Positions 13,033-34,072 of a stretch of 34,509 nt of DNA are shown here, piece after piece. Each line of letters starts with the position of its first letter. The first letter of the stretch is position 1. A program made the translations under genes and the position numbers. Origin of the DNA: Candidatus Gastranaerophilales bacterium (GTDB lineage: Bacteria > Cyanobacteriota > Vampirovibrionia > Gastranaerophilales > Gastranaerophilaceae); contig CALUTP010000012.1 of the NCBI GenBank assembly GCA_944323725.1, positions 1-34,509 on the forward strand, read 5' to 3'. The notes below the pieces were generated by a model. It did no database searches. It was given only the letters and a program-made list of their open reading frames with translations, and was not told the DNA's origin.

Positions 13033-14571
13033 TCAAACTGTTACTTTTGTTTTTGCTTTTTTATTTGTCATGTATATATTTATAATAGGCAATAACACAC
13101 CAAGAGCGAGGGCAGAATACCCTAATCCTGCTAGATGAGCTACATTAAGTTTCCATAAATTCTTTTTCGCAAAATCCTTTCCTTTAGCAGTAATTTCAGA
13201 ATGAGTTTTTAAATTTATATCATTTAGCCAATGTTTAAGCCCTTTGCCTTCTTTATTTATATTGAAAAGATGCTCTTGATTTCTGTCAAGGAGATTTGCT
13301 GTACCCTTTGCAGCAAAACCTCCAAGTACAAGCCAGTTTAAGAATCCAAAATAATCTCTTGTTACAGATTCCCTTAACTCAGTATCACTATCTGCTGCGA
13401 GAAATCTGCCTATAATAGTTGAAGCATATACCGTTTTTATTGCATTCCCGCTTGATACCGGACCGGTAAATTGAAGTTTATTGATAAAATCTTTAGGATT
13501 TTTAACTTTCATAACACCAATTGTCATTGCAATCATCCCTGCAGATGCTAAAAGTTTTTTTATAAATAATCCTTTTGAATTTTCACAAGTTTTACTAGAT
13601 TTTTTACGGCTTTTATAATCTACTTCACCAACAAATCCTTTTTTACCTGTTCGTTTTTCAGTAAGTTTTCTATTTATATATTGATTAGTTAATCCTAGTA
13701 CAGAAGCAAGAGAAAGCGCTCCAAAAATCTTAATTTTATTAACTCTTTTAATTTTCGCAATAGCATTATCAATATTCACACTTTTATTTGTAAAAACATC
13801 CTTACCCATATCATAGGTATCTCTTAATATATTTGAAAGAGTTCCTGTCATTTTATTTGAGCTGATATTCACATTAACATTTCTATTAGCACCCAACGCA
13901 TTTGTAATTCGTGATTCCATAATTTTTAAAACACATTTTTTGTCTCCTGAATCAAGATTTTCATCTTTTATAATCTCTGTAAATGTCTTAATAATTCCAT
14001 CTCTATTTTTAAAAGTTTCAGGAGTTTTCATATATTTAGGATTGTTCCACCAATAATCCTTCCAGCCCTTTTCATCAATCCATTCAATATTTTCCCAATT
14101 AATATCTTTAAAAGATACCATCTTTCCGCCATCTTGTGCTGACATATTATCCAAAACTCCAGCTACATATTTTTCTATATTACCTCCACTTTTGTCCCAT
14201 GCACTTTTTAATACACCAATTGAATCATCACTAAACCAGCTTTTTGGATTTATTGCGACTTCTGGCTGAAGTCTTTTTGAAACTAATGAAGAAATTCCTG
14301 CTGCTATAAGTCCTGCTGATAGACAATTTATAAATGTTCCGCTTATTTCTCTGAAAAATGTTTCAAAGCCGGCATCTTTATTACGTTTTTTAGTATCAAT
14401 GTAAGTTCTTGGAGCAACCATTGCTCCTAAATCTATTAACACCGCATTTGCCATTTCATTGGTATCAAGAAATTTTAAAGTACTTGTCAATGCTCCATCT
14501 AATGGGCCCTTAAATACAGGGTGGTAATTGCTTGTAACTTTTGTTTGGTAATTTGTAACTGTTAAATTCAT
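13033..14571 (-). CDS. Large membrane protein of a lineage-specific motif family
   Basis: A 512-aa protein without a recognised domain. Near residues 45-75 it has the pattern APRTYIDTKKRNKDAGFETFF ending in RE, followed by a hydrophobic stretch (FINCLSAGLIAAGI). The same pattern occurs in the two proteins at 16594 and 17132. Further hydrophobic segments lie around residues 280-295, 335-350 and 405-425 and at the C terminus (ALALGVLLPIINIYM). The N terminus is not a cleavable signal. AAGGAAA precedes the ATG. A structured leader and attenuator lie upstream, so its expression is probably regulated in the RNA. Function unknown. Confidence 0.8.
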   Translation of the reverse strand: MNLTVTNYQTKVTSNYHPVFKGPLDGALTSTLKFLDTNEMANAVLIDLGAMVAPRTYIDTKKRNKDAGFETFFREISGTFINCLSAGLIAAGISSLVSKRLQPEVAINPKSWFSDDSIGVLKSAWDKSGGNIEKYVAGVLDNMSAQDGGKMVSFKDINWENIEWIDEKGWKDYWWNNPKYMKTPETFKNRDGIIKTFTEIIKDENLDSGDKKCVLKIMESRITNALGANRNVNVNISSNKMTGTLSNILRDTYDMGKDVFTNKSVNIDNAIAKIKRVNKIKIFGALSLASVLGLTNQYINRKLTEKRTGKKGFVGEVDYKSRKKSSKTCENSKGLFIKKLLASAGMIAMTIGVMKVKNPKDFINKLQFTGPVSSGNAIKTVYASTIIGRFLAADSDTELRESVTRDYFGFLNWLVLGGFAAKGTANLLDRNQEHLFNINKEGKGLKHWLNDINLKTHSEITAKGKDFAKKNLWKLNVAHLAGLGYSALALGVLLPIINIYMTNKKAKTKVTV

Positions 14572-14598: not shown

Positions 14599-14628
14599 AA
14601 AAAATCCCTTTATTTAAAACTAAAGGGA
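14599..14628 (-). terminator. Leader terminator/attenuator before the 512-aa gene
   Basis: An 8-bp stem (TCCCTTTA with TAAAGGGA) is followed on the minus strand by six T, in the untranslated leader and 28 nt before the start codon. Its upstream arm can also pair with the loop of the hairpin further upstream. Confidence 0.6.
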
Positions 14629-14652
14629 CTTTTAAAATCTTTTATAAATTTC

Positions 14653-14739
14653 GTTGTAAATTAAAATTTAAACATCAAAATTAATGCAAGTCCCTTTTAG
14701 GTAATTGCATGAGGAGGATGATTTTGATGATTTTACAAC
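14653..14739 (-). ncRNA. Structured 5' leader, riboswitch-like
   Basis: Three nested stems: 653-660 with 732-739 (8 bp), 673-681 with 721-729 (9 bp) and 684-689 with 705-710 (6 bp), all offset by 14000. A 15-nt terminal loop contains CTAAAAGGGAC on the minus strand, which is complementary to the first arm of the following terminator (12 pairs, one bulge). The predicted transcript starts about 10 nt before the first stem. I recognise no known riboswitch consensus. Confidence 0.5.
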
Positions 14740-14757
14740 AAATAAATTCATACCTTT

Positions 14758-14787
14758 ATCATAAATCTAATATAAGAAACTTGTCAA
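14758..14787 (-). promoter_or_regulatory. Promoter of the structured leader and 512-aa gene
   Basis: TTGACA, 18 nt, TATGAT on the minus strand (or 17 nt to TTATGA). The start near 14750 gives a leader of about 180 nt. Confidence 0.55.
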
Positions 14788-29144: not shown

Positions 29145-29173
29145 TTGACATGGGCATTTATATATAATAAAAT
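29145..29173 (+). promoter_or_regulatory. Promoter of the methylase-GHKL-receiver operon
   Basis: TTGACA, 17 nt, TAAAAT. A perfect TATAAT at 29163-29168 also occurs but would give a 12-nt spacer. The start site would be close to the ribosome binding site. Confidence 0.5.
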
Positions 29174-29189
29174 TGAAGGGAGGTTAAAT

Positions 29190-30464
29190 ATGCCTAAAAA
29201 ATCAGTATACAGAAGTAATTTAAACTTTTTAGATTTATTTGCTGGTTGTGGTGGACTTTCCGAAGGATTTATACGTGCGGGTTTTTCTCCTGTTGCACAC
29301 ATTGAGATGGATCAGGCTGCATCAAATTCCCTAAAAACCAGAATGTGCTATCACTGGCTAAAAGAACACAATAAACTTATGTTGTATTATGACTATCTAA
29401 ATAAGAAAATTTCAAGAAATGATTTATATTCTTTGGTTCCTTCTGAAGTAATTGATTCTGTTATCAATGAAGAAATTGCAGAGAATACTTTGGAGAATCT
29501 GTTTAACGATATTGATAAAAAATTAAATAAACAAAAATTGTCCCTTATCATCGGCGGACCTCCTTGTCAGGCGTATTCATTAATTGGACGTTCCTGTGAA
29601 AAAGAAAATATGCTTAATGACAAGAGAAACTATTTATATAAATATTATGCCGAATTTTTAAAACACTACGAGCCTGAGCATTTTGTTTTCGAAAATGTTA
29701 CGGGACTACTTTCTGCAAAAGATCCCGATGGTAAGCGGCACTTGGATAATATGTTAAATTTATTTAAAGATGTCGGTTATGAATGCACTCTTTATGTATT
29801 AAATGCAAAAGAATATGGTGTACCACAAAACAGGAAACGTGTAATTATCTTGGGAAATAAAAAAGACTGCAAAAAAATAGATCTTAACATCCCTAAGCAA
29901 CCATGTAAATCTACAATAAATGAATTATTTGAGGATTTACCTAAAATAAAGGCAGGAGAAGAGTCATGCAAATACATAAAAAAATCAAACAAATTATTAA
30001 CAAATTTAAAAATACGTGACTCTAAAACGCCATTAACATTTCAAATGGCACGCCCAAATACTCAGCAAGATTTATCTATATACAAACTTGCTGTAAAAAA
30101 ATGGGAAAATGAAACAGGCAGATTAAATTATAATGATATTCCTTTAGGGTTACAGACGCACAAAAATAAAAATTCTTTCACTGACAGATTTAAAGTTGTT
30201 GCGGGAAATCTTACTTACTCACATACCGTCGTTGCTCATGTTGCAAAAGACGGTCATTATTATATTCATCCGGATATTGAACAAAACCGGTCTTTGACAC
30301 CTCGAGAGGTTGCACGCATACAGACTTTTCCAGATGATTTCTACTTTGAGGGAATAAAAGATGCAGTTTGCAGAACTTCTGCATATAAGCAAATAGGTAA
30401 TGCCGTTCCTGTTGTTTTGGCAGAAAAAATTGCACAATATATAAAGGATAGTTTGATTGGTTGA
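29190..30464 (+). CDS. dcm: C5 cytosine DNA methyltransferase (Dcm family)
   Basis: 424 aa. Motif I LDLFAGCGGLSEGF is at residues 14-27, the catalytic Cys126 lies in GGPPCQAYS (motif IV), ENV at 168-170 (motif VI), GVPQNRKRVIILG (motif VIII) and LTPREVARIQTFP with AYKQIGNAVP (motifs IX-X). All catalytic motifs are intact. The region between about 215 and 310 should read the target sequence, which cannot be predicted. The ATG at 29190 has GGGAGG upstream; an in-frame TTG at 29145 would sit inside the promoter. It overlaps the next gene by 8 bp. Together with vsr it suggests modification with mismatch repair or restriction. Confidence 0.95.
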   Translation: MPKKSVYRSNLNFLDLFAGCGGLSEGFIRAGFSPVAHIEMDQAASNSLKTRMCYHWLKEHNKLMLYYDYLNKKISRNDLYSLVPSEVIDSVINEEIAENTLENLFNDIDKKLNKQKLSLIIGGPPCQAYSLIGRSCEKENMLNDKRNYLYKYYAEFLKHYEPEHFVFENVTGLLSAKDPDGKRHLDNMLNLFKDVGYECTLYVLNAKEYGVPQNRKRVIILGNKKDCKKIDLNIPKQPCKSTINELFEDLPKIKAGEESCKYIKKSNKLLTNLKIRDSKTPLTFQMARPNTQQDLSIYKLAVKKWENETGRLNYNDIPLGLQTHKNKNSFTDRFKVVAGNLTYSHTVVAHVAKDGHYYIHPDIEQNRSLTPREVARIQTFPDDFYFEGIKDAVCRTSAYKQIGNAVPVVLAEKIAQYIKDSLIG

Positions 30465-32616
30465 AAATAATTTATATAAAATACGTCCAGCAGGACGTCA
30501 TCTGTTTACAATAGGTAAGGATTTAATAAAAGATCCTCAGGCTGCAATTATTGAGTTGGTAAAAAATGCTTATGATGCAGATTCTCCTTCTGTTGATATA
30601 TATTTTGAAATCTCGGAAAGCAAAGATAAATTACTTATAAAAATAAAAGATTTTGGTCATGGTATGACAAAGGATGATGTATTAAAAAAATGGCTTGTTC
30701 CCTCAACTGATAACAAAGAAAAACAAAAGAAAAGTCCAAATGGTCGCATAATGCAGGGGAAAAAGGGAGTTGGTCGTTATGCAGTATCATTAATTGGAAA
30801 TGATTTGTTGATGGATACAGTAGACCAAAATGGAAACAAATCACAAATATACATAAATTGGGATGACTTTAACAAGTACGAATATTTAGATGAAGTCAAT
30901 ATACTTGTTGATTTTTCAAAAGTTTCTGAACACTCCGGAACAGAACTTATAACAACCGGAGATATAGAACACTTACAATATTGGGTAAAGCAAGACAGGA
31001 CTGGTAATTTTGTTAATATCAATGCATTAATAAAAGAATTAAAGAAAATGCTTTCTCCAAATAAAGATTCTAATGATATTTTTGAAATCACTTTGTATCT
31101 TAAAAATTTTGATGCAGAGAAAGAAAAAACAATTCCGATTAAGCCTTTTCCTTTTTTTGATGTTTATGACTATAGGATTTTTGGTAAATTTACAAAAGAT
31201 GGAAAAGGTATTTTTAAATATCAGAATTATAAATCTGGAAAATTGGTAGAGGAAGATATAATTTTAAATGAAGATGTAAAATGCGGGAACGTAGAATTTG
31301 ATATTAAAGTATATGATCGGGAAACAGATTCTTTACGAAATCTTATTGGGCGGGGGTTAACCAATGAAAATGGAGCTTATCTCAATGTTCAGGAAACAAA
31401 AACTATTTTAGACGCAGCTTCCGGTATAAGTGTATACAGAAATGGTTTTAGGATAAGACCTTTAGGTGATCCCGGGTTTGATTGGCTACATTTGGATACA
31501 CAACGTGTACAAAATCCTTCTTTTATCATTGGTAATAATCAGGTTATAGGTGTTATAAATATTGAAAGTGAAGATAAATCTGGGCTGGAAGAAAAAAGTG
31601 CACGTGACGGATTGAAAGAAAATGAAGCTTATAACAATCTTGTAGATATTACAAATGCTGTTTTAAATAATTTAGAAAGAAAACGTTTTGACTATAAACG
31701 ATTCATTGATAAGCAAAAGACTAAAACAACAAAAAATACAGAAACTTTATTAGATTATACAAATACCGAAAAAGAAATCGAGCAGGTATTGCGTAATGAC
31801 AATATATCTAAAGAAACAACAAAGAAAGTTTTAAACGTAATTTCAAAAACAAAAAAAGAAAAAGAGCAGCAATACAATATTATATCAGAATATATCGCTA
31901 AATATGAAGGTCAGGCAACTCTTGGGAAAATAATGGATATCGTTCTACATGAAGCCAGAAAACCTTTAAATTTCTTTTCTAATCAAATTAAAAATACAGA
32001 ATACTGGGCGAATGAATTAAAAGAAAATTATACAGAAGAGAATTTAAATAATTTATTAGATATTTTATCAGACTATAAACTAAATACGAAATTATTAACA
32101 GATTTATTTCGAAGGTTAGATCCTCTTTCATCTAAAAACAGAGGCTCTAAAAAAGAAATAAATATAAAAAAGGTTATAAATCAATCTGTAAATATATTTC
32201 AAAATGAAATCAAAAATACGAATATTAAATTAATTATTGATTGCAAACCGGATATAGTATATTTTGCTTGGGAACAAGATTTAGTTGTTATTATTACAAA
32301 TCTGATTGAAAATAGTATATACTGGATTAAAAAAAATAATTCTTTAAATAAAATTATAGATATATCTGTTCAAAAGAAAGATACTGGCTTTGAAATGGAT
32401 ATCATTGATACAGGAGAAGAAATTCCTGAATCTGCAATAGAAAGCGGATCGATATTTGAACCGGGATATACATCCAAGCCAAAAGGCAACGGTAGCGGCT
32501 TAGGTTTAGCGTTAGCAGGTGAAGCGGCCTCAAGAAATAATATAGTTTTAAAAGCCGTTAGTCATAAACATGGTGCACATTTTAAATTAGAAACAAAGGA
32601 ATTGATTAATGATTAG
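30457..32616 (+). CDS. Dual GHKL ATPase: MORC/Hsp90-like N terminus plus histidine-kinase-like C terminus
   Basis: 719 aa. Module 1 (about 1-230): ELVKNAYDAD with Glu33 and Asn37, DFGHGM at 65-70 and GKKGVGRYAV at 101-110, the N, G1 and G2 boxes of MutL/MORC/Hsp90 ATPases. Module 2 (about 480-719): DIVLHEARKPL with possible phospho-His498, Asn619 in NLIENS, DTGEEI at 651-656 and GNGSGLGLALA at 677-687, as in sensor kinases. A charged coiled region (about 400-480) separates them. There is no membrane segment, so it acts in the cytoplasm. The TTG start at 30457 has AAGGA inside dcm. The next gene, a receiver protein, overlaps by 8 bp and is the likely phosphate acceptor. Confidence 0.85.
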   Translation: MVENNLYKIRPAGRHLFTIGKDLIKDPQAAIIELVKNAYDADSPSVDIYFEISESKDKLLIKIKDFGHGMTKDDVLKKWLVPSTDNKEKQKKSPNGRIMQGKKGVGRYAVSLIGNDLLMDTVDQNGNKSQIYINWDDFNKYEYLDEVNILVDFSKVSEHSGTELITTGDIEHLQYWVKQDRTGNFVNINALIKELKKMLSPNKDSNDIFEITLYLKNFDAEKEKTIPIKPFPFFDVYDYRIFGKFTKDGKGIFKYQNYKSGKLVEEDIILNEDVKCGNVEFDIKVYDRETDSLRNLIGRGLTNENGAYLNVQETKTILDAASGISVYRNGFRIRPLGDPGFDWLHLDTQRVQNPSFIIGNNQVIGVINIESEDKSGLEEKSARDGLKENEAYNNLVDITNAVLNNLERKRFDYKRFIDKQKTKTTKNTETLLDYTNTEKEIEQVLRNDNISKETTKKVLNVISKTKKEKEQQYNIISEYIAKYEGQATLGKIMDIVLHEARKPLNFFSNQIKNTEYWANELKENYTEENLNNLLDILSDYKLNTKLLTDLFRRLDPLSSKNRGSKKEINIKKVINQSVNIFQNEIKNTNIKLIIDCKPDIVYFAWEQDLVVIITNLIENSIYWIKKNNSLNKIIDISVQKKDTGFEMDIIDTGEEIPESAIESGSIFEPGYTSKPKGNGSGLGLALAGEAASRNNIVLKAVSHKHGAHFKLETKELIND

Positions 32617-33673
32617 TTTTAAAATCTTGCATTTAGAAGATGAACAGGAAAATATTACAAATTTTCAAAGAACAATAACCCGTTATAACAAGCAACATAG
32701 TTACAATATTCAGTATGAGGCTGTTTTAACACTAGAAGATTTCAATCAGAAAAATATAAATGAATATGATGCAACAATTATAGATATAAAGCTTAATGGT
32801 AATCCGGATGAAGGTTATACCGTTCTTAATAATATGCAAAAAGCACTAGAAAGAATCCCGTCTGTGATATATACAGGTACAGATTCACAGAATGATAATA
32901 AATATGCTTTAAAAACTTTTACAAAAGGGGATGATAATGTTGATGAGGAAATTCTGGATTTTTTGGTTAGTATATACAAAACCGGTCTTATGAATCTTTT
33001 AGGCGGGAAAGGGCAAATAGAGCAGATTTTATCTGATATTTATAACAGTAATATCAGGTACAATATGGAAGAATGGTTAAATTTAGCTGCCCAAGATTCT
33101 TCTAAGACTGAGACTGCGTTACTTCGTTTTATAAGCCACTGTTTGGAAGATATGTTACATACAGACTGTGAACAAACATATTCTGTTGAAATGTATATTT
33201 CGCCACTATTAAATGAAGAATTATCTCCTGGTCTTATTATACAAGACAATTATGATAATAAATTTATAGTAATAACTCCTGCATGCGACTTAGCACTACA
33301 TAATGGCACCAGAAAAGCTGATTCAATACAACTTTGCTGTATTGAAAATATTACAAAACATTTTCCGGGTACATCACAATCTGCAAAAAATAGGCGTAAA
33401 TGTGCTTTAGAAAATAAAAATAATATGTTCCATTGCTTACCAAAATGTAAAATATTTGAAGGTGGTTTAATTAATTTTCAGGGATTAAAAATGATTGAGA
33501 TAGCAGAACTTGAGAATGGAAATTATAAATCTGTTGCAAAAATTGCTTCTCCATATTTGAAAAATATACTTGCAAGATTTTCTAATTACTATGCAAGACA
33601 AGGTCAACCTGATATTTCATGGGATATAGATGCAATAGAACAGGAACTTGCAGGGCAATCAGGAATTAATTAA
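32609..33673 (+). CDS. Receiver-domain protein with uncharacterised C-terminal domain
   Basis: 354 aa. Residues 4-125 form a response-regulator receiver: acidic pocket Glu10-Asp11-Glu12, phospho-acceptor Asp59 in IIDIKLNGNP, Thr89 in YTGT and Lys106. No DNA-binding domain follows. The rest contains a helical link and then VITPACDLALHNG, FHCLPKCKIFEGG and SPYLKNILARFSNYYARQGQP. I have seen this T-x-x-CDL plus SPY-xx-Lxx-RF pattern in uncharacterised bacterial proteins but know no function. It is probably the output of the kinase-like partner upstream. AAAGGAA precedes the ATG; the start overlaps the upstream stop by 8 bp. It converges on vsr with a 15-bp overlap. Confidence 0.8.
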   Translation: MISFKILHLEDEQENITNFQRTITRYNKQHSYNIQYEAVLTLEDFNQKNINEYDATIIDIKLNGNPDEGYTVLNNMQKALERIPSVIYTGTDSQNDNKYALKTFTKGDDNVDEEILDFLVSIYKTGLMNLLGGKGQIEQILSDIYNSNIRYNMEEWLNLAAQDSSKTETALLRFISHCLEDMLHTDCEQTYSVEMYISPLLNEELSPGLIIQDNYDNKFIVITPACDLALHNGTRKADSIQLCCIENITKHFPGTSQSAKNRRKCALENKNNMFHCLPKCKIFEGGLINFQGLKMIEIAELENGNYKSVAKIASPYLKNILARFSNYYARQGQPDISWDIDAIEQELAGQSGIN

Positions 33674-34072
33674 TTTAGATTCTATTATGTTAATGCAATG
33701 ATTTATATCTTTTTTTATTTCGTCATCCCAGAATCTTAATATTGTCCAACCTTGAGACATTAATATTTCATTGACTTTTTTATCACGTTCGATATTACCA
33801 CCAATTTTTTTGATCCAAAATTCGGAATTCGTACCTATTCGTTTACTCTGATTTTCCCAGTCATATCCATGCCAAAATTTACTGTCGCAAAAGATTGCAA
33901 TTTTGTTTTTTTTGAAAACAATGTCCGGTTTTCCATATACATCTTTACAGTTTTTTCTGTATCTATATCCTTTTGCCCATAAAGCTTTTCTAAGGATTAC
34001 TTCTATTTTTGTATCCTTATTTTTAATAGATTTCATGTTTTTGCTACGTTGTTCTTTTGTTAATACATCCAT
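33659..34072 (-). CDS. vsr: Vsr-family very-short-patch repair endonuclease
   Basis: 137 aa. MDVLTKEQRSKNMKSIKNKD leads the usual start, then RKNCKDVYGKPDIVFKKNKI with the catalytic Asp, FCDSKFWHGYDW with the catalytic His and NIERDKKVNEILMSQGWTIL with RFWDDEI. Vsr nicks 5' of T in T:G mismatches that arise from methylcytosine deamination and usually accompanies a Dcm enzyme. The usual GCFWHGH is here SKFWHGY, a small departure. TATAAT ends 6 nt before the ATG and no Shine-Dalgarno fits, so it is probably leaderless. It is transcribed toward the operon, separately from dcm. Confidence 0.92.
   Translation of the reverse strand: MDVLTKEQRSKNMKSIKNKDTKIEVILRKALWAKGYRYRKNCKDVYGKPDIVFKKNKIAIFCDSKFWHGYDWENQSKRIGTNSEFWIKKIGGNIERDKKVNEILMSQGWTILRFWDDEIKKDINHCINIIESKLINS

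Follow-up and report, generated by a model that had tools for sequence, protein, structure and literature searches.

On the minus strand of the window, by which we mean the whole stretch of 34,509 nucleotides that was analysed, a gene encoding a 512-aa membrane protein (14571-13033) is preceded by the Shine-Dalgarno sequence AAGGA (14582-14578). Unless stated otherwise, all features of the leader and its gene given below are on this strand. The layout of the locus is a promoter, a leader ORF, 36 nt, an intrinsic terminator, the ribosome-binding site and the 512-aa gene. A promoter scan gave the -35 hexamer TTGACA (14787-14782) and the -10 hexamer TATGAT (14763-14758), which are separated by a spacer of 18 nt. 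This pair has 11 of 12 matches and is the joint best of the 3.5-kb region scanned, and a TTGAC-type promoter is also found upstream in 81 of 85 leaders of the same kind. The terminator (14631-14602, with a U-tract at 14604-14599) ends about 28-30 nt upstream of the ATG at 14571.

The original prediction, made from the letters of the DNA, had proposed that a cis-acting minus-strand leader governs an intrinsic terminator located ahead of the 512-aa gene, and both the promoter and the terminator were confirmed. Transcription from the opposite strand had been named as an observation that would speak against it. On the plus strand there is a short ORF with an AGGAGG..ATG motif; however, this motif is merely the complement of serine codons, and the candidate opposite-strand gene was rejected.

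The 512-aa protein had no relative in searches of Pfam, NCBIfam and PDB sequences, and its structural model, which was of fair quality (pLDDT 80), gave no convincing fold match in Foldseek. The family and fold searches revealed no evident tie of the protein to serine or cysteine. Many members of the family share an F[KRN]G motif near the N-terminus. Two tandem paralogs in the same genome (L172, G000:C22:42648-45633) are without such a leader. In other parts of the window, a tmRNA gene lies at 111-507 on the minus strand (Rfam RF00023), and the region 29145-34072, judged by eye, encodes a DNA cytosine methyltransferase, a GHKL-type ATPase, a receiver-like protein and a Vsr-like endonuclease; it looks like a modification/defence island.

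Leader ORF and its codon run

The leader ORF, which was absent from the original prediction, has 27 codons (14751..14668) and its translation is MNLFVVKSSKSSSSCNYLKGTCINFDV, ending at a stop codon. It contains the putative sensor codons UCA UCC UCC UCA UGC (S11-S14 and C15, 14721-14707) and two more serine codons, S8 and S9 (14730-14725). The window leader and 16 further leaders have a gap of 6 nt between the -10 hexamer and the leader ATG; others have a longer 5' end. Such a short gap suggests that the leader ORF is leaderless, in which case transcription would start at about 14751, the A of its ATG.

Similar ORFs precede the orthologs of the 512-aa gene. The orthologs were taken from related genomes and GTDB representatives, and the named records among them include Candidatus Gastranaerophilales, Melainabacteria and Candidatus Scatousia. 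A leader ORF was found before 78 of the 80 GTDB orthologs, which come from genomes of Gastranaerophilales/Melainabacteria, relatives of the cyanobacteria that live in the gut, and the run of serine or cysteine codons was clear in 76. Two of the 80 orthologs (L133 and L164) had no leader ORF, and two further picks were weaker. When 91 leaders were scored (the 80 orthologs, the window and ten loci of the first set, with some duplicates), leader and terminator were found in 85. The run shared its frame with the upstream ATG in 63 of the 64 leaders with a strict run; the corresponding values for the other frames were 0 and 8.

The choice of serine codons in the leaders differs from that in the genes behind them. 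TCC made up 218 of the 451 serine codons of Ser-type leaders vs 91 of 1767 in the downstream genes, and it accounted for 12 of 315 in twelve genes of the window. AGY showed the opposite bias, with 25 of 451 in the leaders vs 642 of 1767 in the downstream genes. Expressed as percentages, 94% of the leader serine codons were UCN and 48% were UCC, compared with 5% UCC in the genes behind. One tRNA-Ser gene was found in the genome for each of the anticodons GGA, TGA and GCT. When Bacillus subtilis is starved for serine, which is one of the first amino acids to run out, its ribosomes slow down on the four UCN codons and on Cys codons but not on AGY (PMC3862929). The codon choice of the leaders fits this slowing pattern.

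To define the distribution of the leader, model R1 was applied at E <= 1e-4. Among 99 genomes it found no more than one leader in each, almost always at the 512-aa gene, and a serine-leader regulon was therefore rejected. Thus, we infer the signal from the codons, not from a regulon. The window leader was the only full model match in its own genome, and the lower matches that were inspected there had no convincing Ser/Cys-run leader. A weak partial match of 40 bits was seen away from the known leaders (L198, G035:C2:60099-60174).

Complementary segments and nested stems

The RNA between the codon run and the gene can be divided into the segments of an attenuator. Segment 1 (ATGCAA, 14710-14705) is the 5' arm of a putative protector hairpin, and in the window's own fold a second such arm, CATCAAAAT, lies at 14729-14721. 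Segment 2 (AAAGGGACTT, 14697-14688) comes just after the run, contains GGGACTT and is the 5' strand of the antiterminator. Segment 3 (AAGTCCCTTT, 14631-14622) is both the 5' arm of the terminator and the 3' strand of the antiterminator. Segment 4 (AAAGGGATTT, 14611-14602) is the 3' arm of the terminator, and its end overlaps the U-tract.

The complementarity between segments 2 and 3 is kept across the family. In 78 leaders its median p value against dinucleotide shuffles was 0.015, and p was below 0.05 in 69 of them. Forty-eight Ser-type leaders were aligned independently of the 2:3 structure; here 98.2% of the base-pair cells of the 2:3 helix were paired, double changes occurred in 5 of 8 pairs, and none of 500 shuffles reached as high a value. 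Controls in which the helix was slid along the alignment gave 15-59% paired. In the terminator helix 3:4, each of the 9 pairs showed double changes. Segments 2, 3 and 4 vary as triples: CGGGACTT/AAGTCCCG/CGGGACTT, CGGAACTT/AAGTTCCG/CGGAACTT, CGAGACTT/AAGTCTCG/CGAGATTT, CAGGACT/AGTCCTG/CAGGACT and CAGAGCTT/GAGCTCTG/CAGAGCTT, besides AAAGGGACTT/AAGTCCCTTT/AAAGGGATTT in the window. Segment 2 is translated in two frames, as S-G-L-E or as G-T-C, which indicates that the RNA, not the peptide, is conserved there. Hairpin 1:2 was complementary at p<0.05 in 36 of 78 leaders, and no covariation was seen in it.

Downstream of segment 2 lies a block, TTTTGATGT (14680-14672), that was identified from consensus columns. 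In 52 of 78 leaders, vs 7% of shuffled copies, segment 2 is followed by a block whose consensus is TTTTGATGTGTAGTTTTT, and in about half of the leaders carrying it the conserved TTTTGATGTGTAG block is located beyond the stop codon. It resembles a polymerase pause site, perhaps that of the E. coli his leader, and it may serve in pausing here as well.

The minimum free energy fold of 14752-14594 consists of three nested stems, all of which overlap the leader ORF, and the terminator. The stems are an outer one of 8 bp (GTTGTAAA/TTTACAAC, 14739-14732/14660-14653), one of 9 bp (CATCAAAAT/ATTTTGATG, 14729-14721/14681-14673) and one of 6 bp (ATGCAA/TTGCAT, 14710-14705/14689-14684). The original prediction had described these stems, and they are real: the fold energy is -37.3 kcal/mol, far below that of shuffled sequences (-21.0 kcal/mol, sd 3.5; z -4.7), and 0 of 200 shuffles were as stable. 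The same prediction had noticed that the terminal loop is complementary to the first arm of the terminator, and this complementarity is perfect over 10 nt, AAAGGGACTT at 14697-14688 and AAGTCCCTTT at 14631-14622. That such pairing would prevent termination is borne out by the 2:3 complementarity, which covaries and is exclusive with the terminator.

Proposed mechanism and rival explanations

We are confident, on comparative grounds, that the leader is a ribosome-mediated transcription attenuator of the trp/his type, which would be switched on by serine shortage. This type of attenuation is read from the leader ORF, the codon run, the codon bias, the covarying segments 2/3/4, the terminator and the promoter, since these are shown by comparison of sequences. 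The sensing of charged tRNA and the switching on under shortage are what we infer beyond them. In the proposed mechanism, RNA polymerase would start at the leader ATG and a ribosome would follow it. When charged serine tRNA is ample, the ribosome would clear the UCN run, which would be read above all by the single-gene tRNA-Ser(GGA), expected for UCC, and also by tRNA-Ser(UGA) and tRNA-Cys. After the run has been cleared, segment 2 would be covered or refolded into hairpin 1:2, so that the 3:4 terminator would form and transcription would stop before the 512-aa gene. When serine is short, or cysteine in the Cys-type relatives, the ribosome would stall in the run and cover segment 1. Segment 2 could then capture segment 3 as it emerges, the terminator would not form, and the membrane protein would be made.

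Folding calculations in which a ribosome masked the run and segment 4 was not yet made gave a mean pairing probability P(2:3) of 0.93, and it was above 0.5 in 73 of 74 leaders. The mean was 0.28 without a ribosome and 0.00 with a ribosome over segment 2. In the window, P(2:3) was 0.89 in the stalled state, 0.03 without a ribosome and 0.79 with a ribosome at the stop codon. The calculations thus support the idea that stalling would favour 2:3. The position of the stop codon divides the leaders into two groups. In 37 short-ORF leaders the stop is close behind segment 2, and P(2:3) was 0.00 when a ribosome occupied the stop. In the other 37 of 74, including the window, about 20 nt separate segment 2 from the stop, and the mean P(2:3) with a ribosome on that stop was 0.60. 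Since the distant stop codon leaves 2:3 possible, fed-state termination in these leaders must depend on ribosome release or timing. This is the weakest mechanical point of the proposal.

The original prediction had interpreted the same region as a riboswitch, in which the nested stems would bind a small molecule and the loop-terminator pseudoknot would serve as expression platform. The stable nested fold (z -4.7) and the loop-terminator complementarity agree with such an aptamer; however, what appears to do the sensing is a leader ORF that is conserved as a translated one, with an in-frame Ser/Cys run (63/64). A codon insertion that is missing in the alignment of the relatives takes part in the 9-bp stem of the window. 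Covariation in homologous leaders had been suggested as a check, and its absence as a refutation: segments 2:3 and 3:4 covary, but the outer 8-bp stem is weakly supported, with p<0.05 in 20 of 78 leaders. Among the conserved bases of the leader alignments, no ligand-binding core was found beyond the promoter, the codon run, the complementary segments and the pause-like block. As had been anticipated, the element belongs to no known family, for no family reached its gathering score at the locus in an Rfam search, and the T-box model gave no match there. We consider an aptamer very unlikely. The nested stems resemble the 'protector' conformation that an attenuator adopts when it is not translated. 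The UCCUCC run is complementary to GGAGG, and it might act as an anti-Shine-Dalgarno element that sequesters the ribosome-binding site, so that the serine reading is incidental. Against this, the runs mix UCA, UCC, UCG and UCU yet stay serine, UGY runs occupy the same place in orthologs, the in-frame ATG is kept, and what precedes the gene is a terminator, not a hidden ribosome-binding site. This explanation can hardly be correct.

Two other explanations accept the ORF and assign it a different role. One is that the leader peptide arrests its own ribosome as a nascent chain, or that it senses a general slowing of translation (by a metabolite, an antibiotic or a metal bound to the Cys run), and that the same 2:3/3:4 switch responds. 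Leaders of the ErmC and hflX types are known (PMC2965389, PMC8632094), and the peptide beyond the run is similar within lineages (MNLFTVKSN..GTCMNFGV). However, the peptide ends vary strongly between lineages (SGLE, GTC..V, FYGYLC, RT) while the run persists, and one arrest peptide is hard to reconcile with an exchange between cysteine and serine. The enrichment of the rare TCC is better explained by decoding than by peptide identity, and the Cys form precedes cysteine-synthesis genes. We regard arrest or slowdown as improbable, though less so than the other alternatives. In the other explanation, the ORF would code for a microprotein with a function of its own, and the terminator would do no more than fix the ratio between short and long transcripts. 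Leader peptides can act in trans, as is reported for peTrpL (PMC7298713), but the leader peptides here vary widely in length and sequence, and the constraint is on RNA pairing and codon choice. There is very little to recommend this explanation over amino acid-dependent attenuation.

Cysteine-type relatives and known systems

Loose promoter-ATG-run patterns gave mostly noise, but they yielded two Cys-run leaders with a terminator before genes for a cystathionine-lyase-like protein and cysteine synthase (L173 in G041:C67 and L174 in G036:C1). Their leaders, MRTLFVKNLICCCCKFSC in G041 and MIYKFFENLKCCCCKFLSKRTYL in G036, have the same architecture as the window leader and were not over threshold in Rfam. 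Since a cysteine sensor is expected before cystathionine lyase and cysteine synthase, these two are likely to be cysteine attenuators. Distant lyase homologs at nine other places, of which the L250 locus was read directly, had no clear leader. The Cys-run pattern TGYTGYTGYTGYAAR had many matches, and apart from the known leaders the inspected ones were other frames of coding genes.

When the leaders are labelled as Cys or Ser on a tree of 82 orthologs of the 512-aa protein, one change suffices, and the branch is strongly supported, by a quick method and with an uncertain root. The Cys form also occurs in another family of the order, which makes cysteine the more likely ancestral state; the ancestral signal was probably cysteine shortage. 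An ortholog adjoining the Ser clade (L019, G031:C139) has a mixed leader, CCCCNSSGGCCS (MYKLSNTKVSCCCCNSSGGCCSNFCV), which is a possible intermediate of the switch from Cys to Ser. A more distant ortholog (L026, G066:C129) has a possible leader ending in ..QFCCLRFCNKFK, with a terminator arm that resembles the leader segment, which suggests that the switch is older than the family. Taken together, we think it fairly likely that a serine-dedicated attenuator was derived once from a cysteine attenuator by a swap of the sensor codons, with the rest kept, and that rare UCC codons let serine exhaustion act as a growth signal for a membrane protein of Melainabacteria. If this is true, serine sensing is built into a dedicated switch, and the approximately 80 aligned leaders document how a sensor has changed its amino acid. 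The leader would also give a first lead on when this clade-specific, uncharacterised membrane protein is made.

The literature searched describes leader-peptide attenuators for several amino acids, with cysteine ones in Actinobacteria and Rhodobacterales. A serine-codon attenuator, or any attenuator in Melainabacteria, was not found in it; subscription journals were mostly outside this search, so that absence is no proof. Like the trp, his, leu, thr and phe attenuators, the window leader has a short leader ORF with a regulatory codon run, the 2:3/3:4 alternatives with a putative 1:2 hairpin, a pause-like site after segment 2 and an intrinsic terminator before the gene. Unlike these classical attenuators, the sensor codons are serine here and cysteine in relatives, the controlled gene encodes an uncharacterised membrane protein and is no biosynthetic operon, the window leader ORF is probably leaderless, and the clade is outside those covered in the literature searched. 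The serC leader (Rfam RF00517) is a cis element linked to serine metabolism, but it has a different structure and is located before serC in Alphaproteobacteria.

Other known systems also share properties with the leader. The uORFC-8-2 motif before cysS in Rhodobacterales, for which ribosome-mediated attenuation was proposed, has a terminator and a short ORF with tandem Cys codons (PMC8632094). It has two Cys codons and belongs to Alphaproteobacteria, whereas runs of 3-4 Cys codons, or runs of Ser codons, are found here before a different gene in Melainabacteria. Mycobacterium and other Actinobacteria have leader ORFs with a Cys run, which are leaderless in mycobacteria; no conserved terminator was found there, and control is reported as translational or possibly Rho-dependent (PMC1262725; Canestrari 2020 via PMC13236596). 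Unlike them, the leaders here have an intrinsic terminator and a covarying antiterminator. In the sinR sensor of B. subtilis, serine shortage is likewise read by slow UCN, not AGY, and Cys codons are slow too; however, those codons are inside the regulated gene and lower its protein, with no attenuator (PMC3862929), whereas the codons here belong to a dedicated leader and are expected to increase transcription. The kind of regulation is therefore a known one, and its serine sensor, its clade and the switch of the sensor appear to be new.
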